DNA of 32,938 nt from Betaproteobacteria bacterium (lineage in GTDB: Bacteria > Pseudomonadota > Gammaproteobacteria > Burkholderiales > SG8-41), in contig JACPTK010000008.1 in the NCBI GenBank assembly GCA_016192825.1, positions 1 to 32,938 on the forward strand, read 5' to 3'. The notes beneath the pieces are model-generated. The model had not been told where the DNA came from. It saw nothing but the letters and a program-made list of their open reading frames with translations, and did no database searches. Shown here piece after piece: positions 1,360 to 26,583 of the stretch. The first letter of the stretch is position 1; the number at the start of each line of letters is the position of its first letter. The position numbers and the translations under genes are program-made.

Positions 1360-1440
1360 CACTCGGCACCCAGCACTTGGCACTCAGCACTCAGCACTCA
1401 GCACTCAGCACTCAGCACTCAGCACTCAGCACTCAGCACT
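1360..1440 (+). repeat. Heptamer tandem tract, CACTCAG x 8.5 plus three degenerate copies
   Basis: From 1381 to 1440 the unit CACTCAG repeats eight times plus CACT, preceded by three imperfect units from 1360. The tract runs directly into the stop codon of the next minus-strand gene, whose TAG uses the last two bases of the tract and one base beyond. Confidence 0.95.
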
Positions 1441-2305
1441 ATTTGAACCGGACGGAAACGGCCGGATTCCCCGGCAACCCCTCATAGCGCACCGTGACAT
1501 CAAGCCCCGGCCGCGGCCGCAGCGGCGGCGTGAACGAGCCCAGGCTCAGCCTGTCGCCCGGCTTGAGCTTGATTCGGGATCGCTCCAGATCCTGAACGAG
1601 CCACAGCACGGCGTTGAGCGGATGATCGAGGATCGCCGCGCCCTTCGCGCTCGCCAGTTCCTTGCCGCGCTGATCGGACACCACCACGCGCATCGCGGCG
1701 AGCGATTCCGCGAATTCGGGCGTCGCCCGGACTGGCACCCCCTTCCCCACCACGCCGAGCCGCGCGCCGACGTTGAGCGACACGATGAGCGGCGCGGAGA
1801 GCTTCTCGCCTTCCGCGACCAGGAGGTCCGGCAGCTCGATGAACGGGATCACGAGCGAGAGCGAGCGCAGCACCTCGAGGTGCGTCTTCGCCTTGTGGAT
1901 CGCGGCGTCTTTCACCACAACCATGAGATCGGCCTCGAATACCGGCCGCGCGCCAAAATTGAACGGCACATCGGCACCGCCCTCCAGCAGCATCTTCTCG
2001 AGCAGCACGCCGCGCACCGGGCTCGCGACGCCGAAACGCTCCTGCACCGCCTTGCTCGTCAGCCCGGCCTTGTAGCCGACGACGCGGTTGTCGCTCGATT
2101 CGAGCTTCTCGACCAGGCGCCGGCGCCCGCATTCCGCGTCCTTCATGGAAAGGTCCGTGCGCAGGCCGCGCACCGGCTCCCGCGCCTCGAGGAAGCGCAC
2201 GAGCGCGTTGACCCGCTCGTGGCTCGGGCACGCGGCGCGCGCATCGCCCTGCCCCCACAGCATTGCCGTCAACGCAAATAGATGCAGATACGTTCTAGCT
2301 TTCAC
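1439..2305 (-). CDS. Exported 2-keto-4-pentenoate hydratase-like protein (MhpD/FAH-fold family)
   Basis: 288 residues from a GTG at 2305, chosen because it gives a good Sec signal peptide (MKARTYLHLFALTAMLWG... ending DARA|AC). A TTG at 2326 would add seven residues translated from a repeat. The mature part resembles 2-hydroxypenta-2,4-dienoate hydratases: VGYKAGLTSKAVQERFG, then PVRGVLLEKML, FEADLMVVV, IPFIELPD, a LNVGAR-like segment and GDRLSLGSFTPPLRP near the C-terminus. Family members hydrate 2-keto-pentenoate intermediates of meta-cleavage in the cytoplasm. A predicted periplasmic location and no aromatic-degradation neighbours make the true substrate unknown. It stands alone; a heptamer tract abuts its stop codon. 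Confidence 0.75.
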   Translation of the reverse strand: MKARTYLHLFALTAMLWGQGDARAACPSHERVNALVRFLEAREPVRGLRTDLSMKDAECGRRRLVEKLESSDNRVVGYKAGLTSKAVQERFGVASPVRGVLLEKMLLEGGADVPFNFGARPVFEADLMVVVKDAAIHKAKTHLEVLRSLSLVIPFIELPDLLVAEGEKLSAPLIVSLNVGARLGVVGKGVPVRATPEFAESLAAMRVVVSDQRGKELASAKGAAILDHPLNAVLWLVQDLERSRIKLKPGDRLSLGSFTPPLRPRPGLDVTVRYEGLPGNPAVSVRFK

Positions 2306-2349
2306 GGAAAAATCGACAGGATTCAATCCACATGAAGATCAAGAGGAGA

Positions 2350-2452
2350 ATGGACAGGATTTACAAGATTTACAGGATTAAATCAAGGAAAGAACCCGGA
2401 AGATTCCAAGCGTCGCTTTTTGAATCATGTTAATCCTGTTAATCCTGTCCAT
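2350..2452 (+). repeat. Inverted pair of ACAGGATT-type 9-mer repeats
   Basis: ATGGACAGGATTTACAAGAT... at 2350-2382 (three 9-bp units ending ACAGGATT) faces an inverted arm at 2429-2452, whose complement reads ATGGACAGGATTAACAGG. About 45 bp lie between the arms. The same motif (GACAGGATT) also occurs at 2314-2323, beside the start of the hydratase gene. It is non-coding. Confidence 0.8.
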
Positions 2453-2466
2453 TTCTTTTTGCGCCG

Positions 2467-2472
2467 TATAAT
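2467..2472 (+). promoter_or_regulatory. Consensus -10 box (TATAAT)
   Basis: A perfect TATAAT lies 103 bp upstream of the ATG at 2575, in an AT-richer stretch just after the ACAGGATT repeat arm. No strong -35 is seen; TGTCCA 15 bp upstream is the closest candidate. It probably drives the spermidine-synthase-like gene. Confidence 0.5.
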
Positions 2473-2527
2473 ACGCCCCTTTTGCCCGGCAACCGGCAGC
2501 GCGGCCGGCAGGAACAGGCGCCGAATG

Positions 2528-2571
2528 ACGAGCCACGAATCACGAGTCACGAGTCACGGGTCACGGTTTCC
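2528..2571 (+). repeat. Heptamer tract (ACGAGTC type, six units)
   Basis: Six 7-bp units: ACGAGCC, ACGAATC, ACGAGTC, ACGAGTC, ACGGGTC, ACGGTTT. The tract ends four bases before the ATG at 2575. It replaces any normal Shine-Dalgarno spacing and would be read as a spurious N-terminal extension if a TTG at 2482 were used. Confidence 0.9.
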
Positions 2572-2574
2572 AAA

Positions 2575-4587
2575 ATGATCCTCTACGCCCTCACCATCTT
2601 CGCGAGCGCGTTCCTGCTGTTCCTCGTGCAGCCGATCATGGCGAAGCAGATTCTGCCGTGGTTCGGCGGCTCCGCCGCGGTGTGGTCGACCTGCCTCGTG
2701 TTCTTCCAGTTCCTGCTGCTCGCGGGCTACGCGTACGCGGACTGGACCACGCGCAAGCTCGGCGCCCGCAAGCAGGTGGCGCTGCACATCGTGCTGCTCG
2801 CCGTGAGCCTCGCCTCGCTGCCCATCCTTCCCGACGCCGGCTGGAAGCCCGCCGGCGACGAGGATCCGGCGTGGCGCATCCTCGGCCTGCTCGCCGTCAC
2901 CATCGGGCTGCCCTACTTCCTGCTCTCGACCACCGGCCCGCTGGTGCAGGCGTGGTTCGCGCGCACGTTCCCGGCCGGCACGGTGTACCGCCTGTTCGCG
3001 CTGTCCAATTTCGGCTCGCTGCTCGCGCTGCTCTCCTATCCCTTCGCGTTCGAACCGTGGATCGCCACGGCCACCCAGTCGTGGGGCTGGAGCGCCGCGT
3101 ACGTCGTATTCGTCGCGATGTGCGCGGCTGCGGCCATCTACAGCATTCGCGCGCAGCCGCAGGGCGCCGGCCCGGCGCAGGCGGTCGCGGGGCCGAACGA
3201 CGGCCCGCCGCCCGGGGCCGGCGACTACGTGGCGTGGCTGCTGTTCGCGGCAATGGGCGCCTTCATGCTGCTCGCCGTGACCAACCACATCACGCACGAC
3301 GTGGCCTCGGTGCCGTTCCTGTGGATCCTGCCGCTCACGCTCTACCTCGTGACCTTCATCCTGTGCTTCGAGGGGCGCGGCTGGTACCGGCGCGCCATCT
3401 TCCTCGGGCCGCTGCTCGCGATCGTCAGCGCGATGGCGTGGGCGCTCCACAAGGAGGGCGGCCTCATGGACGTCAAGGCGGCGGTCCCGCTCAACCTGGT
3501 GGGGCTGTTCGTGATGTGCATGTTCTTTCACGGCGAGCTCGCGGCGCGCAAGCCCGCGCCGCGCTACCTGACGGTCTTTTACCTGATGGTGTCGCTGGGC
3601 GGGGCGATCGGCGGGCTCGCGGTCGGCATGGTCGCCGTGAAGCTCTTCAACACCTACTACGAGTTCGGCATCGGCCTCGTCGCGACGCTGGTGATCGCCG
3701 CCTACGTCACCCGCCTCATGCACTCCGCGGTGCCGCTGCTGGTGATCGCCGCCGTCGGGTTCAGCGGCTTCCACGTCTATCAGTACATCCGGTCGCTGAC
3801 CGAGGACACGCGGGTCATGACGCGCAATTTCTACGGCACCCTGCGCGTGAAGGACATCGGGGAGGACGAGGACGGCCTGCGGCGCCTGGTGCACGGCGTG
3901 ATCATGCACGGCGAGCAGTACCGCGCGCCGGAGCGCCGCAACGAGCCCACCACCTACTATGGCGCCACCTCGGGCATCGGCCGCGCGCTCAAGGCGCTCG
4001 ACTCGACCGCGCTCCGGGTCGGCGTCGTGGGGCTCGGCACCGGCACGCTCGCCGTCTACGGGCGCAAGGGCGACGTCTACCGCTTCTACGAGCTCAATCC
4101 GCAGGTGGTGGATATCGCGCGGCGCGAGTTCAGCTTCCTCGGCGACAGCGGCGCGCGGGTCGAGACCGTCCTGGGGGACGCGCGCCTTGCGATGGAGCGG
4201 GAGGCGCCGCAGCACTACGACGTCCTGGTGATCGACGCGTTCTCGAGCGATTCCATCCCGGTGCACCTCATCACGCGCGAGGCGATGGCCGTCTACCTCG
4301 GGCACGTGAAGCCCGGCGGGGTGATCGCGTTTCACGTCACCAACCGTTTCCTGGAGCTTGCCCCGGTGGTGAAGCGCATCGCCGAGGAGCGGCGGCTGCA
4401 CGCGGCGCTGATCTCCGACGACGCGGAGGACAGCGACCTCGCCCGCACCGACTGGGTGCTGGTCGCGCGCGACCCCGCGCTCTTCAAGCGTCCCGACATC
4501 GCGAAATTCACGAGCGAGATCGAGGACATTCCGGGATTGGCGGTGTGGACCGATGATTTCAACAATCTCCTGCAGATTCTGAAATAG
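2575..4587 (+). CDS. Membrane-anchored spermidine synthase-like (SpeE-fold) fusion protein
   Basis: 670 residues from ATG 2575. The start begins with a transmembrane segment (MILYALTIFASAFLLFLV); the upstream TTG extension would be heptamer-repeat translation. Roughly the first 410 residues form many hydrophobic helices (FLLFLVQPIMAKQILPWFGG, then LLSTTGPLVQAWF typical of the family). The C-terminal ~250 residues are a spermidine-synthase/methyltransferase fold: VGVVGLGTGTLAVYG near 481 and DVLVIDAFSSDSIPVHLITREA near 550. Family knowledge: such fusions are common and annotated 'fused MFS/spermidine synthase', but aminopropyltransferase activity is rarely shown. No Shine-Dalgarno is visible. 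No polyamine genes are nearby, so substrate and role are open. HtrA follows in the same direction after 72 bp. Confidence 0.8.
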   Translation: MILYALTIFASAFLLFLVQPIMAKQILPWFGGSAAVWSTCLVFFQFLLLAGYAYADWTTRKLGARKQVALHIVLLAVSLASLPILPDAGWKPAGDEDPAWRILGLLAVTIGLPYFLLSTTGPLVQAWFARTFPAGTVYRLFALSNFGSLLALLSYPFAFEPWIATATQSWGWSAAYVVFVAMCAAAAIYSIRAQPQGAGPAQAVAGPNDGPPPGAGDYVAWLLFAAMGAFMLLAVTNHITHDVASVPFLWILPLTLYLVTFILCFEGRGWYRRAIFLGPLLAIVSAMAWALHKEGGLMDVKAAVPLNLVGLFVMCMFFHGELAARKPAPRYLTVFYLMVSLGGAIGGLAVGMVAVKLFNTYYEFGIGLVATLVIAAYVTRLMHSAVPLLVIAAVGFSGFHVYQYIRSLTEDTRVMTRNFYGTLRVKDIGEDEDGLRRLVHGVIMHGEQYRAPERRNEPTTYYGATSGIGRALKALDSTALRVGVVGLGTGTLAVYGRKGDVYRFYELNPQVVDIARREFSFLGDSGARVETVLGDARLAMEREAPQHYDVLVIDAFSSDSIPVHLITREAMAVYLGHVKPGGVIAFHVTNRFLELAPVVKRIAEERRLHAALISDDAEDSDLARTDWVLVARDPALFKRPDIAKFTSEIEDIPGLAVWTDDFNNLLQILK

Positions 4588-4606
4588 CTTCGCCCAATTT
4601 CCGAAT

Positions 4607-4648
4607 CGGTGACTCGTGACTGGTGACTGGTGGCTGGTGGCTGGTATA
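4607..4648 (+). repeat. Heptamer tract (GGTGACT type, six units)
   Basis: CGGTGAC, TCGTGAC, TGGTGAC, TGGTGGC, TGGTGGC, TGGTATA fill most of the spacer between the preceding stop (4587) and the protease ATG (4660). The last unit provides TATAGT, a possible -10 box. Confidence 0.9.
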
Positions 4649-4659
4649 GTTTCGCAACC

Positions 4660-6027
4660 ATGAAGCGCTCGGCTGCTCTTCTCGTTGGCTGTGTCTTGGC
4701 GGCACAGCTGCTGTCCGCGCCCGCGGTGGCGCAGCCGCAGGCGGATGCGCGCGGGCTGCCAACGCTCGCGCCGCTGGTCGAAGCGGTGACGCCGGCGGTG
4801 GTGAACATCTCGGTCGTGACGCGCTCACCGCTCGAGAGCAACCCGCTGTTCCAGGACCCCTTCTTCCGGCGCTTCTTCAACCTGCCCGACAAGCCGCAGC
4901 GCCAGGAGCAGGCTGCCGGTTCGGGGGTGATCGTGGACGCCGTGCGCGGCTACGTGATCACCAACCACCACGTGATCAAGGACGCCGAGCAGACGATCGT
5001 CACGCTCAAGGACCGCCGCCAGTTTCAGGCGAAGCTCGTCGGCACCGATCCCGGCACCGATATCGCGGTGCTGCAGATCGAGGCGCGCAACCTCTCGGCA
5101 ATCCGGATCGGAGACTCCGACGCGGTGCAGGTCGGCGACTACGTGATCGCGATCGGCAATCCCTTCGGCATCGGCCAGACCGTCACTTCCGGCATCGTCA
5201 GCGCGCTGGGACGAAGCGGTCTTTCCCCCGAGGGCTACGAGGACTTCATCCAGACCGACGCGTCGATCAACCCTGGCAATTCGGGCGGCGCGCTCGTCAA
5301 CATGCGCGGAGAGCTGATCGGCATCAACAGCGCCATCGTCGCGCCCGCCGGGGGCAACATCGGGATCGGCTTCGCGGTGCCTTCCAACATGGCGCGCGCG
5401 GTGATGAGCCAGATCGCGCGCTTCGGCGAGGTGCGGCGCGGGCGGCTCGGGATCGAGATGGGGGACCTGACGCCCGGAATCGCGAAAAAGCTCGGCATCG
5501 CCGCGCAGGAGGGCGCGTTCATCGGCGCGGTCCAGCCGGGCTCCCCGGCGGAAAAGGCGGGGCTGCGCGAGGGCGACGTGGTAGTCGCGTTGAACGGCCG
5601 CCCGATCCGCGCGGCCGCCGAGCTGCGCGCGCGGCTGGGGCTCACGCCGGTGGGCGAGGAAATCGAGCTGCGGGTGGCCCGCGGGAGGGAGACGCGCGCC
5701 GTCCGGACGCGCATCGCCGCGCCGCAGGAAGCCGCCGGCGCCGAAGGCAAGGCGGTGCCGCAGCTGCCGGGCCTGAGCGTGGTCGAGATCGAGCGCGGCA
5801 GCCCGCTCTTTCAGCGCCTGAGGGGCGGCGGGCTGGTGGTCACCGCCGTGCAGCAGGACAGCCGCGCCTTCCAGGCCGGTTTCCGTCCCGGCGACATCCT
5901 CTACGCCGTCAACCGCCGGCGCGTGCAGACCGTCGCCGAGTTCCAGGCCGCCGTGCGCGGCGCGCAGGGCCGCTACGCGGTGTCGCTGCTGCGCGGGGAC
6001 TTCAACGTAACGATCATCGTTCGATAA
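4660..6027 (+). CDS. HtrA/Deg-family periplasmic serine endoprotease
   Basis: 455 residues from ATG 4660. A GTG start at 4630 would only add repeat-encoded residues. A Sec signal peptide covers residues 1-24 (LLVGCVLAAQLLSAPAVA|QP). The trypsin-like domain shows the full triad: H104 in TNHHVI, D134 in DPGTDIAVL and S208 in NPGNSGGAL. Two PDZ domains follow (about 275-350, with GSPAEKAGLREGDVVVALNG; about 375-455, with DSRAFQAGFRPGDILYAVNR). Size and layout match DegP/DegQ/MucD, which degrade or chaperone misfolded envelope proteins. It follows the spermidine-synthase-like gene, without evidence of a shared function. DegP and DegQ cannot be told apart here, so no symbol is given. Confidence 0.95.
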   Translation: MKRSAALLVGCVLAAQLLSAPAVAQPQADARGLPTLAPLVEAVTPAVVNISVVTRSPLESNPLFQDPFFRRFFNLPDKPQRQEQAAGSGVIVDAVRGYVITNHHVIKDAEQTIVTLKDRRQFQAKLVGTDPGTDIAVLQIEARNLSAIRIGDSDAVQVGDYVIAIGNPFGIGQTVTSGIVSALGRSGLSPEGYEDFIQTDASINPGNSGGALVNMRGELIGINSAIVAPAGGNIGIGFAVPSNMARAVMSQIARFGEVRRGRLGIEMGDLTPGIAKKLGIAAQEGAFIGAVQPGSPAEKAGLREGDVVVALNGRPIRAAAELRARLGLTPVGEEIELRVARGRETRAVRTRIAAPQEAAGAEGKAVPQLPGLSVVEIERGSPLFQRLRGGGLVVTAVQQDSRAFQAGFRPGDILYAVNRRRVQTVAEFQAAVRGAQGRYAVSLLRGDFNVTIIVR

Positions 6028-6170
6028 GACAGGACGCGAAGCGCCGGCTTGTCTCCGCGCGATCGAGCGGACGACGCCTCGCCCCTCATCGCGCAGCGGT
6101 CCCTCCGAGGCCGAGGAGAAGACAGCTGCCTTCTGCCCACCCGCTTCCGCCTCTCCCCTCGGTTTTCCGG

Positions 6171-6455
6171 CTACGCGGCCGGCTTCACGCCGTAGGTGGC
6201 CTCGATGTAGCGCCGCATCTCCTCGGGGGTGACCACGCCGTCGCGGTTGATGTCCGCGTCATTGAAGCGCGGTCCGAAGCCGAGGTCGCCGCGCGCTTCG
6301 TCACGGGTCAGCACGCCATCGCCGTTGAGATCGAGCGCGCGGAATGCCGCCATGTCGGCATCCGCCGCGCGGCGGTTGTAGACCTCACGGTCGTCCGCCG
6401 CGACTGCGCACGCCGCCGCGGCCAGCGCGATCGCCAGCCAGATTCGCAATTTCAT
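6171..6455 (-). CDS. Exported EF-hand calcium-binding protein
   Basis: 94 residues. The start at 6455 is supported by AAGGAG about 8 bases upstream and by an immediate signal peptide (MKLRIWLAIALAAAACAVAA). The mature ~74 residues contain two EF-hand loops, DLNGDGVLTRDE and DINRDGVVTPEE, with acidic residues at positions 1, 3, 5 and 12, so both can probably bind Ca2+. Small secreted EF-hand proteins are common in proteobacteria; the partner is unknown. It is divergent from the alpha/beta hydrolase gene, with a 131-bp spacer that must carry both promoters. Confidence 0.85.
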   Translation of the reverse strand: MKLRIWLAIALAAAACAVAADDREVYNRRAADADMAAFRALDLNGDGVLTRDEARGDLGFGPRFNDADINRDGVVTPEEMRRYIEATYGVKPAA

Positions 6456-6553
6456 GTGGTTTCTCCTTGGCGCGCGGCCGGTCGCCGCACGCTCCAATTA
6501 CACTAGCTGGGACCGCGGCCGGCCGGCAAAGTTTTCCCGCGACGAGGCCGGGT

Positions 6554-6559
6554 TATACT
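6554..6559 (+). promoter_or_regulatory. Possible -10 box (TATACT) for the hydrolase gene
   Basis: TATACT sits 28 bp upstream of ATG 6587, in an otherwise GC-rich divergent spacer. The upstream GTTTTC is a weak -35 match. It would give a short leader carrying GGAGGAACC. Confidence 0.45.
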
Positions 6560-6586
6560 GGCGCCCTGTCCGGACCCGGAGGAACC

Positions 6587-15891: not shown

Positions 15892-17058
15892 TTACGTAAA
15901 TTCCTCGGCACGGCCGTAGGCAAACACCCCGGTTAGGAAGCGCGCGAGCCCGTAGCAACTCCAGGTAAAAAAGCGGGTGGTCCATGGCTGGTCCCGCCAG
16001 CTCTCGCGCCGGACCTGCCGCGCGCCCTCGGCGATGGCGCCGACCAGGCTCTCCCGCAGCTCGCCGGCGAACCCGTCGTCCTCGATCACCACGTTGGCCT
16101 CGCGCGCGAGCAGCAGGCTGTAGGGGTCGATGTTGGACGAGCCGACCGTCGCCCAGCGGCCGTCCACCACGGCGACCTTGGCGTGCAGGAAGCTCCGGTG
16201 GTACTCGTAGATCTCGATTCCGGCGTCGAGGAACGCGCCGTAGAGAGCGCGCGAAGCATAATGCTGGAGCACGTATTCCACCCGTCCCTGCAGCAACAGG
16301 GCGACCCGCACGCCGCGCGCGGCCGCCTCCATCAGCGCGTGGCGGAAGGTGATGCCCGGAAAGAAGTAGGCGTTGGCAACGAGGATTTCGCTCTTCGACC
16401 TTCCAATCGCCTCGAGGTAGGCCTGCTCGATGTCGCGGCGATGCGCGATGTTGTCGCGCACCACGAATGCCGCGCGCTGCCCGCCGCGGAATTCCACCGG
16501 CCGCTCGATGCGGCCGGCGTGCGGCCAGCGCGCGCGGAACTGGATGGCGCTCGCCCGGGCCCACAGCCGCTTCGCCTCGGGATGGATCTTCGCCACCAGC
16601 GGCCCTTCGACGCGCACCGCGTAATCGAAGCGCGGCGGCGTGCCGCCCGGCGCGTCGGTGTCGTCCACCACGTTGATGCCGCCGACGAACGCGATGCGGG
16701 CGTCCACCACCGCGATCTTTCGATGCAGGCGCCGCAGGCGGGTGCGCCGCAGGGTCCACGGCGAGATGTTGGGGCGATAAACCAGGAACCGGACGCCGGC
16801 CGCCCGCATCTCGCGCACCAGCGCACGGTCGAGGTCCTGCGAGCCGTATCCGTCCACCATGACGTGGGTCGCCACGCCGCGTCCCGCCGCGCGCATGAGC
16901 GCGCCCGCGATGGAGCGCCCCGTCGCGTCATCCTCGAAGATGTAGGTCTCGAGGCGGATCTCGCGCCGCGCCGCGTTGATTTCCGCCTCGAGCGCGGGAA
17001 AATACTCGACGCCGCTTCGCAGCAGCGTGATGCGATTGCCGTCGACGAACTCGATCAT
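15892..17058 (-). CDS. clsB: Cardiolipin synthase B (two-HKD phospholipase D family)
   Basis: 388 residues from ATG 17058. Two HKD motifs are visible: HRKIAVVDARIAFVGGIN near residue 113 and HAKVAVVDGRWATVGSSN near 290, the pair needed for phosphatidyl transfer. Length and the family-typical RLETYIFEDDATG and FDYAVRVEGPLV segments fit ClsB, which joins phosphatidyl groups to make cardiolipin or phosphatidylglycerol at the inner membrane. The start overlaps the upstream gene's stop (ATGA), so the two are translationally coupled. The same partner order (ybhP then ybhO/clsB) is known in E. coli. Confidence 0.92.
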   Translation of the reverse strand: MIEFVDGNRITLLRSGVEYFPALEAEINAARREIRLETYIFEDDATGRSIAGALMRAAGRGVATHVMVDGYGSQDLDRALVREMRAAGVRFLVYRPNISPWTLRRTRLRRLHRKIAVVDARIAFVGGINVVDDTDAPGGTPPRFDYAVRVEGPLVAKIHPEAKRLWARASAIQFRARWPHAGRIERPVEFRGGQRAAFVVRDNIAHRRDIEQAYLEAIGRSKSEILVANAYFFPGITFRHALMEAAARGVRVALLLQGRVEYVLQHYASRALYGAFLDAGIEIYEYHRSFLHAKVAVVDGRWATVGSSNIDPYSLLLAREANVVIEDDGFAGELRESLVGAIAEGARQVRRESWRDQPWTTRFFTWSCYGLARFLTGVFAYGRAEEFT

Positions 17059-17813
17059 AACGGAACCAGCGTTGCCGTCAGCGCCGCATGGTCGGAAATG
17101 CGCGCCCACGCGCGCCCGTGGTGGACGTGAGCGGTGGGCACCCGAAAACCGCGCACGTAGATGCGATCGAGCGACATGAACGGCAGCGCCGCCGGAAAGG
17201 TGCGCGCGGGCCGGCCCTTCACCAGCTCGAACACCTCGTAGAGGTTGAGGGGATGCGCCAGCTCCTGTGTCGCGCGGTAGCGCCAGTCGTTGAAATCGCC
17301 CGCGACGATCAGCGGCGCCTCCGGCGGCACCAGCCGCTCGATGCGCTGCCGCAGCTTCTCCAGCTGACGGCTGCGCTCGTGCGCCCGCAGCCCGAGATGC
17401 ACGCACACGCAATGCAGCGACCGGCGCCAGCGCGGGATCCGGATCTCGCAGTGCAGGAGACCGCGCCGCTCGAAGCGGTGACTGGAAACGTCCTCGTTGT
17501 CCCAGCCGAGGATCGGGAAGCGCGACAGGACCGCGTTGCCGTGATGGCCCGCATCGTAGAGCGAATTCCTGCCGTAGGCGAAGTCGCTCCACACCGCGTC
17601 GGCGAGAAACTCGTACTGCGGCGCGGCCGGCCAGTTCTCGTAGCGCCGGGCGTGACGCTCGTGCTTGCCGTGCACCTCCTGCAGGAACACGATATCGGCG
17701 TCCAGCGCGCGCAGCTTCTCGCGCAGCTCGTGTATGGTGAGCCGCCGGCTGAGCAGCGGCGTCACCGAGAGGCCCTTGTGGATGTTGTAGGTCGCGACGC
17801 GGAGCGTTCGCAT
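17055..17813 (-). CDS. Endonuclease/exonuclease/phosphatase (EEP) family protein, YbhP-like
   Basis: 252 residues from ATG 17813 (MRTLRVATYNIHKG); longer starts would translate heptamer repeats. EEP-fold metal and catalytic motifs are present: TYNIHKG (Asn), IVFLQEVHG (Glu), VCVHLGL, VAGDFNDW (Asp/Asn), SLDRIYVRG and SDHAALTATL (Asp-His). Such proteins hydrolyse phosphodiesters. The E. coli homologue YbhP also sits beside clsB, suggesting a link to phospholipid metabolism, but its substrate is not known to me. It overlaps clsB by 4 bp. Confidence 0.9.
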   Translation of the reverse strand: MRTLRVATYNIHKGLSVTPLLSRRLTIHELREKLRALDADIVFLQEVHGKHERHARRYENWPAAPQYEFLADAVWSDFAYGRNSLYDAGHHGNAVLSRFPILGWDNEDVSSHRFERRGLLHCEIRIPRWRRSLHCVCVHLGLRAHERSRQLEKLRQRIERLVPPEAPLIVAGDFNDWRYRATQELAHPLNLYEVFELVKGRPARTFPAALPFMSLDRIYVRGFRVPTAHVHHGRAWARISDHAALTATLVPL

Positions 17814-17823
17814 GTTTTCAGAT

Positions 17824-17932
17824 GCGTGATTGGTGATGGGTGAGTGGTGATTGGACGAGTGCGCTGGACGCAAACCGCCTTCATGAACGCCTTAGTCCAT
17901 TCACCATTCACCATTCACTATTCACCATTCAC
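17824..17932 (+). repeat. Two opposed heptamer tracts
   Basis: GCGTGAT, TGGTGAT, GGGTGAG, TGGTGAT, TGGACGA (17824-17858) lie just upstream of the EEP start. CATTCAC x3, TATTCAC, CATTCAC (17898-17932) lie on the far side, about 40 bp away. The two arms are roughly inverse-complementary (GGTGAT versus ATTCACC). Confidence 0.9.
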
Positions 17933-18496: not shown

Positions 18497-18617
18497 GCGT
18501 GACCGTTGCAGCGTGACTGATAAGGCGTGACTGATGCGGCGTGACTGATGTGGCGTGGATCATAGGGTCGGCGACTCACGAATCACGGTTCACGAATCAC
18601 GGTTCACGAATCACGGT
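18497..18617 (+). repeat. 14-bp and 7-bp GTGA/TCAC tandem tracts
   Basis: GCGTGAC recurs at 14-bp spacing (with TGATNNG between copies) over about 18497-18560. After a short gap, six heptamers TCACGAA/TCACGGT alternate from 18576 to 18617. The final units contain the TGA stop (18611-18613) of the SRPBCC gene. Confidence 0.9.
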
Positions 18618-19162
18618 TTCCCGGGCTCGCGATGCTGGCGCTCGATCTCTTCGACCAGGGCGCGGAAGGTCCTCTCGACGTGGTGACTGAGAACCCAGGT
18701 GCCGATGAGCGGCGGGACGTAGAAGTCCGGAATCATGCGTCCCGTGTAACGCAGCAGCACGTGCCCCTCACCGGCCTCAAGCTCGTAGGTGCCCCGCATT
18801 TCGCGGAAGTTGCCGGCAACGGCGCGTGACTCCAGCCGCTCGTAGGGATGCTCCGCGATGACGAGCCGCACGTTGATGGGATAGCTGAAGAACAGCACTT
18901 TCGCCTCCCCTTTCTGCTCCACGACGGCGCCGTTGCGGTCGCGGGAAATCACACGGCTCGACGCAACGCCGGGAACGTAGTCGGCGATGCGGTCGTAGTC
19001 GGTGAGCACCTGCCAGGTGCGGGCGATGCCGCCTGCGAATTCGGCTCTGGCTTCGACCTCGAGCGCCTCGCCGTTGCGCGTGGCGTGAACGACGACCTCC
19101 GCGGCCTGCGCGGGAATGACCAGCGCCAGCAGCGGCAGCAGGAATGAGCGCGCCCCGGGCAT
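18611..19162 (-). CDS. Exported SRPBCC (START-like, COQ10/RatA-type) protein
   Basis: 183 residues from ATG 19162 with a Sec signal peptide (MPGARSFLLPLLALVIPAQA|AE). The remainder is one SRPBCC domain: FAGGIARTWQVLTDYDRIADYVPGVASSRVI near 43-73 is the classic N-terminal helix-turn of the family, and LRYTGRMIPDFYVPPLIG follows. Cytoplasmic relatives bind lipids or ubiquinone in a deep pocket. An exported version suggests a periplasmic hydrophobic ligand, which is inference. A hairpin of the 19170-19551 repeat sits 8 bp upstream of the start. Confidence 0.78.
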   Translation of the reverse strand: MPGARSFLLPLLALVIPAQAAEVVVHATRNGEALEVEARAEFAGGIARTWQVLTDYDRIADYVPGVASSRVISRDRNGAVVEQKGEAKVLFFSYPINVRLVIAEHPYERLESRAVAGNFREMRGTYELEAGEGHVLLRYTGRMIPDFYVPPLIGTWVLSHHVERTFRALVEEIERQHREPGKP

Positions 19163-19551: not shown

Positions 19552-19556
19552 CGTAA

Positions 19557-20847: not shown

Positions 20848-20853
20848 ATTATA
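20848..20853 (-). promoter_or_regulatory. Consensus -10 box (TATAAT) for nadA
   Basis: Minus-strand TATAAT in an AT-rich run about 33 bp before the GTG start of nadA, inside the 95-bp gap after nudB. The -35 is not obvious. It suggests nadA is transcribed separately from nudB. Confidence 0.55.
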
Positions 20854-20909
20854 TATGACAGAAATTCGCCGCATGAATTCGGCGCATTTCCGCAGAGTCC
20901 GCATCCTGG

Positions 20910-21368
20910 TCATGGTTTTTCTGCGCGCTGCGTCACGCGCTGCGGCAATTCGCGTATCGCCTCCGCGTTGCTCCACGAAAAAGCCCTTTCCGCGGCCATC
21001 TGCCAGGGAACCCACTCGTAGCGCAGGTGCTCCCGGGGCTCGAGCGTGATTGCCGCCGGCTGCGGCACGAGCAGGCCGAACACGTGCTCGGTGTTGTGCG
21101 TCACACCCGGCGCATAGCGGCTCCGCCAGCGCCGGTAGATTTCGTAGCGGTTCTGCTTGCGCCAGTCCGCGAGCTCGTAGCGCGCCGCGTCGAGCCCGGT
21201 CTCCTCCTTGAGCTCCCGCACCGCGGTATCGCGCAGCGTCTCGCCCTCGTTCTGGCTGCCGGTCACCGACTGCCAGAAGCTCGGTCGGTCGGCGCGCTCC
21301 AGCAGCAGCACCTCGAGCGCAGGCGTGTGCACCACCACCAGCACCGACACCGGACGCTTATATCCCAT
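20910..21368 (-). CDS. nudB: Dihydroneopterin triphosphate diphosphatase (Nudix family)
   Basis: 152 residues. The Nudix box is complete (GSQNEGETLRDTAVRELKEETGLD, near 37-60, fitting G-x5-E-x7-REU-x-EE-x-GU). The start MGYKRPVSVLVVVHT and SFWQSVTGSQ, plus WRSRYAPGVTHNTEHVFGL, are typical of NudB. It removes pyrophosphate from dihydroneopterin triphosphate in folate synthesis. The aspS-nudB neighbourhood is conserved in many proteobacteria; here the barnase/barstar pair lies between them. Confidence 0.9.
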   Translation of the reverse strand: MGYKRPVSVLVVVHTPALEVLLLERADRPSFWQSVTGSQNEGETLRDTAVRELKEETGLDAARYELADWRKQNRYEIYRRWRSRYAPGVTHNTEHVFGLLVPQPAAITLEPREHLRYEWVPWQMAAERAFSWSNAEAIRELPQRVTQRAEKP

Positions 21369-21439
21369 GCATCAGCCGCCACGACGCCAAGCAATGCGGA
21401 ACCCAACCAGGCCGTCTTGCTGAATCATGAATTCCGGTA

Positions 21440-21871
21440 TCAGCGTAACGGGGACAGCGCCAGCCCCGTTACGCTGTCGCGGTCCACGACCACGAGGAAG
21501 ACCCGCCCGCTGCTCCCCCAGTAGATGGCTGCCTCCCGGAGGATTTCAAGGGCGGCGGTCACCGCCGCGGGCGAGCGCCGCGCCAGCTCCTCCCCGCGCC
21601 GCCAGTGCACGACGGCTCCCGGCGTCCCGTCCCCGGCGCGGTCCAGCAGGCATTCGTGCAGCGCGTCCCGGTTGTGCCCGAAGTAATCGGGGAGCGCAAA
21701 TACCGCCGCGCAGCGACGGAAAAATCCCTCGTCATCGGCCACGCCGGCGAGATCGAGATCGTGCCAGGCGATGCCCGCGCGCCTCGCCGCCGCCCGCAGC
21801 GGCCCGACGAGCCGCGGTGCGGCGTACACGCCCGCGCGGCCGGAGCGGAGGATCTTGTAGTAGCGTGACAT
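21440..21871 (-). CDS. Barstar-family ribonuclease inhibitor
   Basis: 143 residues from ATG 21871 (MSRYYKIL). In-frame ATGs at 21901 and 21916 lie inside a 15-bp repeat and would add MSR-rich residues, so the start is uncertain. The barstar core is clear: AGIAWHDLDLAGV, then FALPDYFGHNRDALHECLLD, corresponding to the barnase-binding helix (Asp retained in RDAL, Glu where barstar has Asp39). The last ~12 residues are encoded by a perfect hairpin (21441-21476) and may be a late addition. The upstream gene encodes a barnase-like RNase, so this protein likely protects the cytoplasm from it. Confidence 0.85.
   Translation of the reverse strand: MSRYYKILRSGRAGVYAAPRLVGPLRAAARRAGIAWHDLDLAGVADDEGFFRRCAAVFALPDYFGHNRDALHECLLDRAGDGTPGAVVHWRRGEELARRSPAAVTAALEILREAAIYWGSSGRVFLVVVDRDSVTGLALSPLR
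21441..21476. repeat. Perfect 13-bp-stem hairpin overlapping the barstar stop
   Basis: CAGCGTAACGGGG and its exact complement flank a 10-base loop. On the minus strand it encodes the end of barstar and its TGA. Being both coding and palindromic, it could be a REP-like insertion that extended the protein, or a transcript-end stabiliser. Confidence 0.75.
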
Positions 21872-22005
21872 GGTGATTCGTGACGTGATAATTCGTGACA
21901 TGGCGAAGCGTGACATGAAAAGGCGTGTCTATTTCATTGTGGTCTCGGCTACGCACGCCCCATCACGTCACGCTCCATCATGTCACGGTGCATCACGTCA
22001 CGCAT
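21864..22005. repeat. Opposed 15-bp tandem tracts between RNase and barstar genes
   Basis: CGTGAC recurs at 21864, 21879, 21894 and 21909 (period exactly 15). On the other side CATCA-C/T-GTCACG units repeat at 21961, 21976 and 21991 (period 15), inverse-complementary to the first set. The first tract carries the barstar start codon (CATGTCACG on the minus strand reads ATG TCA CG). The second ends four bases before the RNase stop codon. Confidence 0.9.
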
Positions 22006-22008
22006 CAT

Positions 22009-22425
22009 TCATTCCCGAATGCGCCTGAAACTGCGATAGTGGTCATCGGTGTAGTAAAGCTCCCCGCCCTTGCCGGCCACGATGCGCCGCGCGCCTCGAT
22101 CCTTCGCGCCCGGAGTCCTCACGGTGTATTCCCGGTAGTAGCCGCGCGCCTGCGCCGGCAACCGTTTCTCGAAGTTGCCGAACACGGCACCGTCGCGCGC
22201 ATGGGGATACGGCCCGCCCGTGCGGATCAGGGCGATCGTTGCGCGCGCCTCCTGCGGCAGCTCCGCCGCCGCGATTTCCGGTACTGCCGTCTTGCCGGAC
22301 GCCTCCCCGCCCGCCCATGCCCGCGGCGGCCCGAGGGCAGCCGCTCCGAGCGCGAGCCAGATCAGGCACGGCAGAAGCAATCCGGCCACCGGTATCCATT
22401 TCAGTATCCGCCGCCGGTGATCCAT
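22009..22425 (-). CDS. Secreted barnase-like ribonuclease (RNase Sa/N1 family)
   Basis: 138 residues from ATG 22425. A hydrophobic signal segment covers about 8-38 (ending AWA|GG). The C-terminal ~85 residues match microbial guanyl-specific RNases: LPQEARATIALIRTGGPYPHARDGAVFGNFEKRLP then YYREYTVRTPGAKDRGARRIVAG and YYTDDHYRSFRRI. The catalytic set is present: E99 (REYT), R114 (GARRI) and H129 (DDHY). It cleaves RNA after G. It lies between aspS and its cognate barstar gene in the same direction. No secretion or Rhs/CDI partner is seen, so simple export of a nutritional or competitive RNase is the simplest view. Confidence 0.88.
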   Translation of the reverse strand: MDHRRRILKWIPVAGLLLPCLIWLALGAAALGPPRAWAGGEASGKTAVPEIAAAELPQEARATIALIRTGGPYPHARDGAVFGNFEKRLPAQARGYYREYTVRTPGAKDRGARRIVAGKGGELYYTDDHYRSFRRIRE

Positions 22426-22503
22426 GGTGGAAAAATATTTCCGGAAGCCGCCCCCGCGGCCTGAAATGTCTCGATGCACCTGCCCCAGCGGGTGCGCCGG
22501 GGA

Positions 22504-24285
22504 TCACTTCTTGGCGGCTTCCTGCCGCAGGCGGATGTGCAGCTCCCGCAGCTGCCGCTCGTCCACCGCGCTGGGCGCGTGCGTGAGCAGGCACTGCGCG
22601 CGCTGCGTCTTGGGAAACGCGATCACGTCGCGGATCGAGTCGACGCCCGCCATCAGCGCCACGATGCGGTCGAGCCCGAAGGCGATTCCGCCGTGCGGTG
22701 GCGCGCCGTACTGCAGCGCATCGAGCAGGAAGCCGAACTTGGCCTGGGCCTCGTCGGCCCCGATGTTGAGCGCCCGGAAGACTTTCTGCTGGACGTCAGC
22801 CCGGTGGATCCGCACCGAGCCGCCGCCGATTTCCCATCCGTTCAGCACCATGTCGTGCGCCTTGGCGCGCGCGGAGCCCGGATCGGATTCGAGGCGGTCT
22901 TCGTGCCCATCGGCGGGCGCCGTGAACGGATGATGCATGGCGTTCCAGCGCTTTTCCTCCTCGTCCCACTCGAACATCGGGAAATCGAGCACCCACAGCG
23001 GCCGCCATCCCGGCTGCGTGAAGCCGCGCTCGTGGCCGATCTTCGCGCGCAGCGCGCCGAGAGCCTCGTTCACGATCCTGGCCTTGTCCGCGCCGAAGAA
23101 GATGAGGTCGCCGCTCTGCGCGCCCGAGCGCCCGATCGCGGCCCTGAGGGCCGGTTCGGACAGATTCTTGACGATGGGCGACTGCAGCCCGGTCTCGTTC
23201 AGCTGGCTCGCGTCGTTGACCTTGATGTAAGCAAGTCCCTTGGCGCCGTAGATCTTCACGAACTCGGTGTAAGCGTCGATCTCGCCGCGGCTCATCGCGG
23301 CGCCGCCCGGCACCCGCAGTCCCGCCACGCGCCCGCCCGGCGTGTTGGCGGGCCCGGCAAAGACCTTGAAGGCGACGTCCTTCATCGCATCGGTCAGCTC
23401 GGTGAGCTCGAGGGTCACGCGCAGGTCGGGCTTGTCGGAGCCGTAGCGCCGCATCACCTCGTCGTAGGACAGCCGCGGGAACGGGTCGGGCAGCGCCACG
23501 CCGAGCACCTCCTTGAAAACGTAGCGGATCAGCCCCTCCATGATTCGCGTGATCTCGTCCTGGCCGAGGAACGAGGTCTCGACGTCGATCTGCGTGAATT
23601 CGGGCTGGCGGTCGGAGCGCAGGTCCTCGTCGCGGAAGCACTTGACGATCTGGTAGTAGCGGTCGTAGCCCGCCACCATCAGCATCTGCTTGAACAGCTG
23701 CGGCGACTGCGGCAGGGCGTAGAACTCGCCCGGGTGCACGCGCGAGGGCACCAGGTAGTCGCGCGCGCCCTCGGGTGTGGAGCGCGTGAGCATCGGGGTC
23801 TCGATGTCGAGGAAGCCCTGGCCGTCGAGGAAGTTGCGCACCGCCATCGCCGTCCGATAGCGCAGCCTCAGGTTCTGCTGCATGGCCGGGCGGCGCAGGT
23901 CGAGCACGCGGTTCTCGAGCCGGACCGTCTCCGAGAGGGTATCGTCGTCCAGCTGGAACACCGGCGGGAGCGAAGCGTTGAGGATGGCGATATCGCGCGC
24001 CAGCACCTCCACTTCTCCGCTCGCGAGCTCGGCATTGACGGTTCCCGCGGGCCGCTCGCGCACCTTGCCCTCGACGCGAACGACGTACTCGCCGCGCAAC
24101 CGGTCCGCGGTCTTGAAGGTCTCCGGCAGGTCCGGGTCGCAGACCACCTGCACCAGCCCCTCGCGGTCGCGCAGATCGATGAAAATCACGCCGCCATGGT
24201 CGCGGCGGCGGTGCACCCAGCCGCACAACGTCACGGCCCGGCCGACATGTTTGCGGCTTATCCTGCCGCAGTATTCGCTGCGCAT
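22504..24285 (-). CDS. aspS: Aspartyl-tRNA synthetase, probably non-discriminating (Asp/Asn)
   Basis: 593 residues, the normal bacterial size. OB-fold anticodon-binding domain (1-110, [22 protein letters not shown]), class II motifs 2 ([23 protein letters not shown]) and 3 ([13 protein letters not shown]), and the bacterial GAD insertion in between. Residue 30 is His in RRDHGG; from memory, His here marks non-discriminating bacterial AspRS, while discriminating enzymes such as E. coli's have Leu. That would imply tRNA-dependent Asn synthesis via GatCAB. It starts 3 bp after the DUF502 stop, so the two are in one operon. Confidence 0.96.
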
Positions 24286-24288
24286 TCG

Positions 24289-24954
24289 CTACGGGTTGGC
24301 GGCGCGCTGTTGCGCCGGCGCCGGACGGACAACGGCGTCTCTCCGGCCGTTGCCATCGGTCGTCACGACACCCATCGAAACGATGTACTTCAGCGCCGTC
24401 TCGACCGACAGCTCGGTCTCGATCACGTCCTCGCGCCTGACGTAGAAGTAAAAGCCGTTGACCGGGCTCGGCGTGGTCGGGATGAACACCGCCACGTGAT
24501 CCTCCTTCAGCCGGCCCGCCACCTCCGCGGGCACGTTGGTCTGGAACGCGAGCGACCAGGCTTGCGGATGCGGGTAGCGCACCAGCAGCACCTTGCGAAA
24601 GGCGTGACCGGAACCGGAGAACAACGTGTCGCTCACCTGCTTCACGCCGTTGTAGATCGAGTTCACGACGGGGATGCGCGCGAGCACGCCTTCCCAGAAT
24701 CTCACCAGCCGCTGGCCGATGATGTTGGCGGCCAGGACGCCGGTGACGAACACGATCAGCAGCGTCAGCACGACCCCCAGCCCCGGAACGTGCACGCCCA
24801 GCCAGGCCTCGGTGCGCCACTCGGGCGGCAGGAGCAGCAGCGACTGGTCCATCGTGCCCACCAGCAGGTTGAGCACCCACAACGTGATGACCAGCGGCAC
24901 CCAGATCAGGAGCCCGGTGACGAGGTAGCGTCGGATGAGGTGTTTCTTGGACAT
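24289..24954 (-). CDS. DUF502 membrane protein
   Basis: 221 residues from ATG 24954. Two N-terminal membrane helices (RRYLVTGLLIWVPLVITLWVL near 9-29; VVLTLLIVFVTGVLAANIIG near 61-80), then the family-typical RIPVVNSIYNGVKQVSDTLF and a soluble domain with VFIPTTPSPVNGFYFYV. The function of DUF502 is not known; its fixed position before aspS in betaproteobacteria suggests a housekeeping role. A small CTAG-bounded repeat lies just upstream, between it and fmdB. Confidence 0.88.
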   Translation of the reverse strand: MSKKHLIRRYLVTGLLIWVPLVITLWVLNLLVGTMDQSLLLLPPEWRTEAWLGVHVPGLGVVLTLLIVFVTGVLAANIIGQRLVRFWEGVLARIPVVNSIYNGVKQVSDTLFSGSGHAFRKVLLVRYPHPQAWSLAFQTNVPAEVAGRLKEDHVAVFIPTTPSPVNGFYFYVRREDVIETELSVETALKYIVSMGVVTTDGNGRRDAVVRPAPAQQRAANP

Positions 24955-24984
24955 GACCGTCCGCTGCGGCGGCGCAGCGGAACG

Positions 24985-25069
24985 CTAGGAGTTTGTCGGA
25001 CTATTCGAAATTTGCAGGCGGTTTTGCTGTTAGCCGCCTGTCGGAACACCAAGTCCGGCAGGCTGCTAG
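24985..25069. mobile_element. Second, 85-bp CTAG-bounded palindromic element
   Basis: The ends CTAGGAGTTTGTCGGACT and AGTCCGGCAGGCTGCTAG are imperfect inverted repeats. The right ~52 bp, from GGCGGTTTTGCTGTTAGC to the end, aligns closely with the right end of the 19170-19551 element. It is a solo or deleted copy inserted between fmdB and the DUF502 gene. Confidence 0.7.
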
Positions 25070-25090
25070 AGCATGACGGCTGGAACGGGA

Positions 25091-25396
25091 TCAGCCGCAG
25101 GCCGGGCAGGCCCCGGTGCCGCAGGCGGCGTCGCCCGTGGACGGTTCCTTGCTGGAGATCTCCGCGGGCTTCGCGCCGTCCGCGGCCTTGTCCTTTGCCG
25201 CGGGCTTCACGCCGCCGTTCCTGAAGTCGGTCGCGTACCAGCCGGTGCCCTTCAACTGAAAGCCGGCCGCGGTGACGAGCTTGTTCAATGCGCGCTTGCC
25301 GCACTCCGGACAATCCGTGAGCGGCGCATCGCTCATGCGCTGCAGATATTCCTTTTGGTAGCCGCACTCCCCGCAGCGGTATTCGTAGATCGGCAT
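25091..25396 (-). CDS. FmdB-family zinc-ribbon protein
   Basis: 101 residues from ATG 25396, with GGAGG four bases upstream. The N-terminal zinc ribbon MPIYEYRCGECGYQ...CPECGK supplies four cysteines. A Lys/Ala/Glu-rich linker and a second Cys cluster (ACGTGACPACG) end the protein. The family is regulatory-looking, but its role is not settled. It heads the fmdB-DUF502-aspS run. A TATAAT box lies 23 bp upstream. Confidence 0.88.
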   Translation of the reverse strand: MPIYEYRCGECGYQKEYLQRMSDAPLTDCPECGKRALNKLVTAAGFQLKGTGWYATDFRNGGVKPAAKDKAADGAKPAEISSKEPSTGDAACGTGACPACG

Positions 25397-25418
25397 GCTG
25401 CCTCCGGACCAAAAAACC

Positions 25419-25424
25419 ATTATA
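25419..25424 (-). promoter_or_regulatory. Consensus -10 box (TATAAT) for the fmdB-DUF502-aspS run
   Basis: Minus-strand TATAAT just before the fmdB ribosome site, in a short AT-rich patch. It would give a leader of about 16 bases. No good -35 is seen. Confidence 0.5.
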
Positions 25425-25567
25425 CCTGAGAAGGTTAACCCACGCCTACGGTAGCTGGGGACGAACCGGAAAATTGCAAGCCTCGAGCCGGCGGCGGTCC
25501 CATTTCGTGTGGCGCCGCAGCAGGCGAAACGGCACAATCGCGAGATCCACAATCAGGGAGCCCCGTC

Positions 25568-26506
25568 ATGACCGGGAAAAAACCCGTGCCATTCACGTTC
25601 AGCCGGCTGATCGCCAGCGTCCGCCGCAAGGATCCCCCGATCACCGCCGTCGTGCACCCCTGCGATCCCGAGTCCGTGCGCGGTGCGGTGGAGGCAACGC
25701 GCAGGAAACTGATCCGCGCGGTGCTGGTAGGCCCGCAAGCGAAAATCCGGCGCGCGGCGGAGGAAGCGGCGGTGAGCATCCGCGGCCTGGAGATCGTCGC
25801 GACCGAGCACAGCGAAGCGGCCGCGGTGGCGGCGGTCGCGATGGCCCGCGAGGGCCGCGCCGATTGCCTGATGAAGGGAAGCCTGCACACCGACGAGCTG
25901 ATGTCCGCCGTGGTGGCCGAAAGCGGCGGGCTGCGCACGGCGCGGCGCGTCAGCCACGCCTTCGTGCTCGACGTGCCGGCCTATCCGCGCCCGCTGATCA
26001 TCACCGACGCGGCGATCAACATCTATCCCGATCTCGAGGAGAAGCGCGACATCGTGCAAAACGCCATCGACCTCGCGCACGCGCTCGGGATCGTCCGCCC
26101 GCGGGTCGCGATCCTGTCCGCCGTCGAGACGGTGACGCCGAAGATCCGCTCGACCCTGGATGCCGCCGCGCTGTGCAAGATGGCGGACCGCGGCCAGATC
26201 ACCGGCGGGATACTGGACGGCCCGCTCGCGTTCGACATCGCGATCTCCGAGGCGGCGCGCCGCACCAAGCACGTGCACTCCGCGGTGGCCGGCCGTCCCG
26301 ACATCCTCCTCGTGCCCGATCTGGAGGCGGGGAACATGCTGGCGAAGCAGCTTCAGTACCTCGCCGGGGCGAAGTCGGCCGGCATCGTGCTTGGCGCGCG
26401 GGTGCCGATCGCGCTCACCAGCCGCTCCGACCTGGCGGAATCGCGTCTCGCGTCCTGCGCGATCGCATCGCTGATGCGCGTGCATGGCCTGAGGAAAAAG
26501 GCGTGA
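25568..26506 (+). CDS. Phosphate acetyl/butyryltransferase-family enzyme
   Basis: 312 residues from ATG 25568 (GGGAG upstream). It matches the short Pta/Ptb family: TAVVHPCDPESVRGAV, AVLVGPQAKI, DCLMKGSLHTDELM near 98-111, RRVSHAFVLDVPAYPRPLIITDAAINIYPD near 125-154, VAILSAVETV, GGILDGPLAFD and LVPDLEAGNMLAKQL. Such enzymes interconvert acyl-CoA and acyl phosphate. The acyl length (acetyl, propionyl or butyryl) cannot be read with confidence. Its stop TGA lies within the first unit of a heptamer repeat. It is followed by acetate kinase, the natural partner. Confidence 0.9.
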   Translation: MTGKKPVPFTFSRLIASVRRKDPPITAVVHPCDPESVRGAVEATRRKLIRAVLVGPQAKIRRAAEEAAVSIRGLEIVATEHSEAAAVAAVAMAREGRADCLMKGSLHTDELMSAVVAESGGLRTARRVSHAFVLDVPAYPRPLIITDAAINIYPDLEEKRDIVQNAIDLAHALGIVRPRVAILSAVETVTPKIRSTLDAAALCKMADRGQITGGILDGPLAFDIAISEAARRTKHVHSAVAGRPDILLVPDLEAGNMLAKQLQYLAGAKSAGIVLGARVPIALTSRSDLAESRLASCAIASLMRVHGLRKKA

Positions 26507-26583
26507 CAAGTGATAGGTGATAGGAAGTTTCTCCCGCGCAACGCGCGGAGATTCTTGTCACTTATCACCCGTCACTTATCACG
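26503..26583. repeat. Opposed 7/14-bp tracts between pta-like gene and ackA
   Basis: GTGACAA, GTGATAG, GTGATAG (26503-26523) are opposed by GTCACTTATCACCC and GTCACTTATCACGC (26556-26583). Between them is a CTCCCGCG/CGCGGAG hairpin. The TGA at 26504-26506 of the first unit is the stop codon of the preceding gene. Confidence 0.9.

Follow-up and report, generated by a model that had tools for sequence, protein, structure and literature searches.

Single-polarity inverted arrays of a GTGA heptanucleotide repeat in the intergenic spacers of an uncultured betaproteobacterial genome

The intergenic spacers of a draft betaproteobacterial genome (GenBank assembly GCA_016192825.1, GTDB lineage SG8-41 of the Burkholderiales) carry tandem arrays of a seven-base unit with the core GTGA, which reads TCAC on the opposite strand. 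The arrays were followed up from one stretch of 32,938 nucleotides (contig JACPTK010000008.1, positions 1 to 32,938 of the forward strand; called the window here, always at its full length), in which an initial annotation had described seven repeat sites. The tracts described there are confirmed; they occur across the genome and greatly exceed what chance would produce. The main point, overlooked in that annotation, is that half of the arrays, hereafter arms, are members of inverted pairs, in which the GTGA arm comes first and the TCAC arm follows. The arms keep a period of seven bases, are nearly absent from genes, are anchored at gene edges and enclose loops that in this genome have no similarity to each other; between two related genomes of a different family in the class, tracts of this kind change in length by whole heptads. 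We favour, with moderate confidence, the reading that these are lineage-specific, mostly neutral heptanucleotide hairpin repeats which grew by slippage and were kept out of genes by selection, and whose second arm would have arisen by inward fold-back copying.

The window corresponds to contig C39 of the draft genome (5.1 Mb in 123 contigs, 5% estimated contamination). For the wider analysis 60 stretches of the genome were fetched and three of them, shorter than 10 kb, were dropped; the remaining 57 together with the window amount to 1,147,118 bp, or about 22% of the genome. Genes were called by an iterated gene finder built for the sampled stretches. Chance expectations were taken from 100 dinucleotide shuffles of the window and from five shuffles of the 1.147-Mb sample. 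The number of arms entering a count varies (122 out of 124 for borders, 119 for edge distances and 121 for inward neighbours), arms with no flanking gene or near the end of a stretch being excluded.

The unit is best written as GTGANTN, with four nearly fixed and three drifting bases, although the fixed core is partly a matter of construction, as arm detection demands GTGA. Of 277 units in paired arms, 212 have T at position 6. The sample contains 117 period-7 tracts (0, 0, 0, 1 and 0 in the shuffles) and 124 GTGA arms (none in any shuffle), and the window alone contains 7 GTGA arms and 4 period-7 tracts, for which the shuffle means are 0.02 and 0.0. The period spectrum of the noncoding tracts is dominated by seven bases and its multiples: 108 tracts have a period of 7 bp, 69 of 14 bp, 32 of 21 bp and 28 of 28 bp, with 20 tracts each at 15 and 30 bp and at most 12 at every remaining period from 4 to 30 bp. 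Besides these leading periods, the commonest is 9 bp, with 12 noncoding tracts here and 13 in G015, a genome from another genus of the family. GTGA or TCAC occurs at least twice in 62 of the 108 period-7 noncoding tracts, and the remainder consist of other heptamer units, among them AGTGCTG, GAGGGAT, TTGGCAG and GCTGGTA.

Ninety-five of the 124 arms are intergenic, 28 lie across gene edges and a single one is found inside a predicted gene, which is not a random placement; the tracts are spread across the whole sample and are not confined to the spacers of the window. The genome-wide system with gene-edge anchoring that the initial annotation had suspected is supported by these counts. The outer edge of an arm lies at a median distance of 10–12 bp from its gene, while 78–87 bp separate the inner edge from the next gene, and the outer distance is the smaller one in 53 of 60 paired arms (P 7.7e-10) as well as in 46 of 59 unpaired arms (P 1.9e-5); thus the unpaired arms point toward the nearest gene in the same way as the paired ones. 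An inverted partner is present within 160 bp for 61 of 122 arms. When neighbouring arms within 500 bp are considered, the order GTGA–TCAC is observed 32 times and the order TCAC–GTGA not once, the gaps being 15–131 bp with one additional gap of 302 bp. Unpaired arms also have company: a period-7 tract lies within 160 bp inward of 17 of the 61, vs 44 of 1,160 random stretches.

The borders of the arms are partly shared. On the outer side A occupies positions -6 to -4 in 57–66% of 122 arms and C occupies position -1 in 90 of them; on the inner side 68 of 122 arms have GA after the last unit, and in 43 of those 68 C comes next. An independent 400 kb of G015 repeats most of the arrangement, with 30 noncoding period-7 tracts, orders of 5:0, an outer distance of 7.5 bp, an inner distance of 78 bp and the outer distance smaller in 24 of 30 cases. 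The exceptions in G015 are that 3 of 33 arms lie within predicted genes and that the foot is A-rich but lacks GC, so that the foot is repeated only in part.

All seven repeat sites listed in the initial annotation are present in the window, with essentially the same coordinates. Tandem Repeats Finder reports period 7 at 1360-1440, 2528-2565, 4608-4645, 17821-17851, 17897-17932 and 18583-18618, period 14 at 18511-18557 and period 15 at 21864-21917 and 21954-22003, as well as short period-7 rows at 26510-26524 and 26554-26582 for the 26.5-kb site. The sites at 17.8, 18.5, 21.9 and 26.5 kb each consist of two arms in inverted orientation, a fact that had escaped notice. The features of the window are as follows.

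1360..1440, minus strand: period-7 tract of another unit family (CACTCAG, or AGTGCTG on the minus strand), 11.6 copies, without GTGA; overlaps the TAG stop codon 1439-1441 of gene 1439-2263 (minus strand)
2526..2564, minus strand: single TCAC arm of 6 units, 10 bp upstream of the ATG at 2575
4609..4640, plus strand: single GTGA arm of 5 units, beginning 21 bp past the stop codon of gene 2575-4587
17826..17850, plus strand: GTGA arm of 4 units, lying 12 bp from the start of gene 17055-17813 (minus strand), the 5' arm of a hairpin
17851..17900, no strand assigned: loop separating the 17.8-kb arms
17901..17932, minus strand: TCAC arm of 5 units, the 3' arm of the 17.8-kb hairpin (z-score -7.59)
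18497..18557, plus strand: 14/28-bp repeat with GTGA (GCGTGACTGATGAG), facing the TCAC arm 18576..18614
18576..18614, minus strand: TCAC arm of 6 units, the outermost of which contains the TGA stop codon 18611-18613 of gene 18611-19162 (minus strand); the pair folds poorly (z-score +0.87)
21864..21917, plus strand: 15-bp repeat arm (CGTGACATGGTGATT), the 5' arm of a hairpin between barstar-like and barnase-type genes
21954..22003, minus strand: 15-bp repeat arm (CACGCTCCATCACGT), the 3' arm of the 21.9-kb hairpin (z-score -7.50)
26503..26520, plus strand: GTGA arm of 3 units, the first of which contains the TGA stop codon 26504-26506 of the PTA_PTB gene 25568-26506
26558..26589, minus strand: TCAC arm of 5 units, the 3' arm of the 26.5-kb hairpin (z-score -10.11), 6 bp upstream of the acetate kinase start at 26596

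Several details of the initial annotation can be refined with this list. The three stop overlaps that it named, TAG at 1439-1441 (minus strand), TGA at 18611-18613 (minus strand) and TGA at 26504-26506, are all seen in the sequence, and in the latter two the stop codon is the TGA of the outermost GTGA unit itself. The gene finder agrees with the starts at 2575, 17813 and 26596, but 4660 was chosen in round 0 only and gave way to 4726 in four later rounds. The unit of the tract at 1360-1440, CACTCAG, is another heptamer; the label "hydratase" for gene 1439-2263 (minus strand) is not confirmed, as this gene has no Pfam match.

Three of the four window pairs fold far beyond their shuffles, namely those at 17.8 kb (z-score -7.59), 21.9 kb (-7.50) and 26.5 kb (-10.11). 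No such fold is formed by the pair at 18.5 kb (+0.87) or by the single arms at 2.5 kb (+2.00) and 4.6 kb (-0.19).

Two more observations concern the same spacers. The 15-bp-repeat hairpin lies between a barstar-like gene and a barnase-type ribonuclease gene, on the minus strand (window 21440-22479). Upstream of the gene at 2575 there is an inverted 9-bp repeat family (ACAGGATTT at 2354-2379 and AATCCTGTT at 2423-2448), and similar letters precede the orthologous gene in locus L099. In GTDB genomes, gene 2575-4587 has its seven best relatives in metagenome assemblies, mostly titled Betaproteobacteria, with 72–81% protein identity.

A four-unit GTGA pattern has 251 and 258 matches (overlapping ones counted) on the two strands of this genome, vs 32 and 51 for the control read backward, and it is found in 23 of 25 family genomes searched (this one included); of 16 genomes belonging to other families in the order, 3 have it. 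In G010, a member of the family, the pattern has fewer matches than the backward control (31 and 40 vs 56 and 68). The GTGA–TCAC pair pattern is present in 38 of 60 family genomes and in 10 of 369 genomes of a class sample, this genome being counted in both, and the opposite pattern in none of the 60. GGGA-type pairs were found in 1 of 274 class genomes. A plasmid search with a synthetic GTGA tract gave no match, though a low-complexity filter may hide one. Tracts of the same kind lie within a 4.98-Mb single contig of G289, where the hairpins at L183-L186 have up to 34 units per arm.

Among 20 relatives of gene 2575-4587 (20 of 80 loci were read; one of them, L103, has only 5 bp upstream), an array in the orthologous upstream spacer occurs in two (L100 and L101), at places different from that in the window. 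A direct comparison of lengths is available for G124 and G248, two related genomes that belong to a different family of the same class and lie outside the genus of the window. Ten G248 loci were compared with 22 G124 loci: four of the ten are shared with the fetched G124 loci, and the other six have no counterpart among those 22. All four shared tracts (91–96% nucleotide identity) differ in their numbers of units (11/9, 26/7, 8/19 and 4/5), and three of the four length differences of 14, 133, 7 and 67 bp are exact multiples of 7. Neighbouring units are moreover more alike than random ones (0.66 vs 0.44). The suggestion of slippage made in the initial annotation is supported by both observations.

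The favoured reading can be put as a sequence of steps. A GTGANNN tract would begin within a few bases of a gene edge, extend into the spacer, and lengthen and shorten by seven-base slippage, which we take as the probable step of growth. Fold-back (template-switch) copying inward into the spacer may then produce a second, inverted arm; in about half of the cases such a second tract would stand 15–131 bp further, near the other gene. Since it lies there in inverted orientation, the spacer should be able to form a hairpin or cruciform. Selection would exclude the tracts from genes, and the arrays would probably have no gene-specific function.

Our confidence does not exceed a moderate level, because slippage alone explains neither the polarity nor the GTGA core nor the borders. 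Pure slippage predicts neither that the GTGA strand runs from the gene into the spacer nor that arms share their borders, and it does not predict a GTGA that stays constant while three bases drift, an effect that partly reflects the detection. Several other observations also weigh against this reading. No second period-7 tract lies within 160 bp inward of 44 of the 61 unpaired arms, so many second arms must either never have formed or have been lost. Of the four length differences between G124 and G248, that of 67 bp does not correspond to a whole number of heptads. Arms of one locus are alike in unit flavour (0.533 vs 0.429 between loci over 31 pairs of this genome, and 0.532 out of register), for which an exchange between arms is needed. 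Nested hairpins at locus L200 of the genome G011 resemble the insertion of one element into another. Finally, mutS is intact in this genome (24 of 25 genomes have a match, which exceeds the cut-off in 23), so that loss of mismatch repair is ruled out as the driver. Loss of the hairpin nuclease SbcD would be permissive at most: no match above the cut-off was obtained in any of 25 genomes, array-poor ones included, and 7 of them have weaker matches; this curated cut-off is strict, being reached by no more than 8 of 14 control genomes.

The nested hairpins would be expected if the arms terminated a small palindromic element that a putative enzyme inserts into spacers and whose heptads slip afterwards. 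Such a miniature mobile hairpin element appears somewhat unlikely. The shared borders of the arms in this genome (A-rich at -6 to -4, C at -1, GA on the inner side), to which those of G011 are similar by eye, speak for it, and so does G289, where the unlike arms GTGAAAG and GTGAATA are paired in 4 of 4 fetched loci, in both orientations, and an 11–12-nt border in the loop is common to three of them. The borders differ, however, in G015 (A-rich, no GC). The loops, moreover, are not similar: no match was found among the 31 pairs of this genome and one among 20 loops of G011, so that the interior is not conserved; a miniature inverted-repeat transposable element (MITE) is marked by a conserved interior together with a target-site duplication. 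No conserved sequence copied between loci, as in repetitive extragenic palindromes (REP) and their hairpin-forming doublets (REPIN), was found; only the GTGA core and the short borders recur. Mobility through REP-associated tyrosine transposases (RAYT) is not supported either, as the Y1/REP-type transposase family PF01797 was not found in the array-rich genomes G002, G005 (83% complete) and G012 (81% complete) and none of the 8 fetched transposase loci has arrays. The window itself has a gene of this type at 2-913 (minus strand), with a Y1_Tnp domain and a DnaA C-terminal-type helix-turn-helix, about 450 bp from the CACTCAG tract. Beside it lie 11–26-bp repeats (962-1058) and a 64-bp unit in 2.8 copies (1079-1258) with a G/C-rich palindrome.

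It is also conceivable, although we consider it unlikely, that in several lineages seven-base units are written into spacers, starting at gene edges, by a strand-polar, sequence-directed process which has no relation to known transposases. The units GTGANTN here, GGGANTN in Xanthomonas, GGGGA(C/T)T in Nostoc and GTGATTA in Helicobacter (the latter three as given in the available text of PMC4692102) would then be variants of a common GKGANTN pattern; this pattern and the one polarity would point to one mechanism, which would be neither G-quadruplexes nor chance slippage.

A third possibility is that the arrays are putative protein-binding sites, in which GTGA at a seven-base spacing is recognised by an oligomeric DNA-binding or nucleoid protein and the two arms are bound across the spacer. 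The persistence of GTGA while three bases drift is consistent with it, as is the retention of GTGA at other spacings (5 bp in L085 and 7+8 in the 15-bp family). The arms show no base-pair covariation in 20 selected pairs of G011: their variable bases are not matched in register (0.481 vs 0.493 for the null), the loci having been drawn from listed hairpin matches and thus biased toward full pairs. This result and the variable spacing of the pairs fit binding better than base pairing. Paired tandem sites of Geobacter were read in this way by their authors (PMC2700814). The possibility is nevertheless a doubtful one, given the large changes of copy number between close relatives, the rarity with which the same spacer carries arrays in different species and the many other unit families of the same period within one genome.

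A role at the level of RNA, as bidirectional terminators, in the protection of mRNA 3' ends or in the control of translation, is improbable. The very stable hairpins of three of the four window pairs and the foot, which is often A-rich on one side and therefore T-rich on the other, would suit such a role. So would the stop codons inside arms, which fall in the first, second and third unit in 22, 6 and 2 of 30 cases, where a random frame predicts 10 each (P 1.4e-5); the association with stop codons noted in the initial annotation is therefore a genuine excess in the first unit. The placement of the arrays speaks otherwise. In tandem spacers, 21 single arms stand on the stop side and 19 on the start side, and array groups occupy spacers at an equal rate whether these are tandem (63 of 692), convergent (13 of 114) or divergent (12 of 120), with P 0.73, so that no preference for positions downstream of genes, as expected of intrinsic terminators, was found. 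Because start sides are about as rich in single arms as stop sides and divergent spacers are occupied too, stop codons are also ruled out as the general seed of the arms. Folding does not favour the transcribed strand: 23 pairs from tandem spacers have 23 wobble-compatible and 28 incompatible differences on that strand, and in 12 of the 23 pairs the sense strand is more stable, which argues against control at the RNA level. The window has no match in Rfam. Together with the array found upstream of the orthologous gene in only 2 of 20 relatives, these counts do not support the mRNA-end or translation control proposed in the initial annotation.

An assembly artefact, which a 123-contig draft with 5% estimated contamination might suggest, is hardly credible and already contradicted, since many family members share the same architecture, which is also seen in contigs as long as 4.98 Mb (G289) and 3.72 Mb (G287), and orthologous tracts occur in two independent genomes (G124 and G248).

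Heptamer repeats of bacteria have so far been explained by the contact length of the polymerase, by G-quadruplexes or by the binding of a regulator. Those of cyanobacteria, the short tandemly repeated repetitive sequences (STRRs), are known, and Mrazek et al. 2007 reportedly found heptamers to be the most abundant long simple sequence repeats, Burkholderia included, and proposed polymerase slippage. The excess of heptanucleotides is alike here, while single-polarity pairing is not known to have been described for either group.

The closest known system is that of Xanthomonas, whose GGGAATC or (GGGANTN)n heptamers are 89–93% intergenic and have no known function (Rehm et al. 2015, PMC4692102); this and the other published systems are compared here as far as the available text of each goes. 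In both cases a 7-nt intergenic tandem unit is conserved at positions 1–4 and 6, overlaps stop codons and varies in length between related species. Convergent inverted pairs number 70 and 75 in two Xanthomonas genomes, and the heptamers lie at a mean of 28 nt from the 5' neighbour gene vs 160 nt from the other, whatever the orientation (PMC4692102); the pairs here are likewise convergent (32:0) and nearer the 5' neighbour gene (outer 10–12 vs inner 78–87 bp). In contrast to Xanthomonas, the core here is GTGA and the unit is more degenerate. It has no G3 tract and thus no classical G-quadruplex, and for this reason the present repeats are a variant of the kind and not members of the Xanthomonas family. 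They differ further in their A-rich/GC feet, in the GA(C) inner border, in their occurrence in an uncultured betaproteobacterial family and in the divergent spacers, which are under-represented in Xanthomonas and are not depleted per spacer here. The same source reports the heptamer GGGGA(C/T)T in Nostoc and mentions, via other authors, GTGATTA in Helicobacter (PMC4692102).

Marine Beggiatoaceae have genome-wide intergenic arrays of the heptamer TAACTGA, many of which end a few bases upstream of a start codon (MacGregor 2015, PMC4679880). Unlike the repeats described here, they have one fixed unit in 2–6 copies, are mostly start-oriented and include a single inverted repeat. The paired sites of Geobacter metallireducens resemble the present ones in having short tandem units on opposite strands at variable spacing, and five heptanucleotides (MTYCTGA) in tandem make up most of its class 3 sites (PMC2700814). 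They differ in numbering 16–48 per class, in their prediction by the authors as binding sites of a global regulator and in the possible vicinity of class 1 to insertion sequences. The system had been called unfamiliar in the initial annotation. That is too strong in view of these three publications; for this lineage itself no report of the repeats was found in the open-access literature (subscription papers were not covered), and a literature search by the repeat letters gave nothing on bacterial repeats by title. The inverted heptamer arrangement resembles that already known from Xanthomonas (PMC4692102), of which the present repeats are a GTGA form that lacks G3 tracts and occurs in an uncultured family of betaproteobacteria.

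The same architecture without a G3 tract, and the same period with several other units, make G-quadruplexes unlikely as the general cause. The polarity and the seven-base step thereby become testable questions. Annotators of such metagenome genomes should expect intergenic hairpins, and assemblies may miscount their units.

Two side observations concern other unit families. At L033, L040, L097 and other loci most G-rich heptamer families also begin, by eye, beside the 5' gene, and the GCTGGTA family seemingly breaks this rule. At L085:19303-19501 a long G/C tract adjoins a GGTGA 5-bp repeat, in which GTGA is retained despite the 5-bp spacing.

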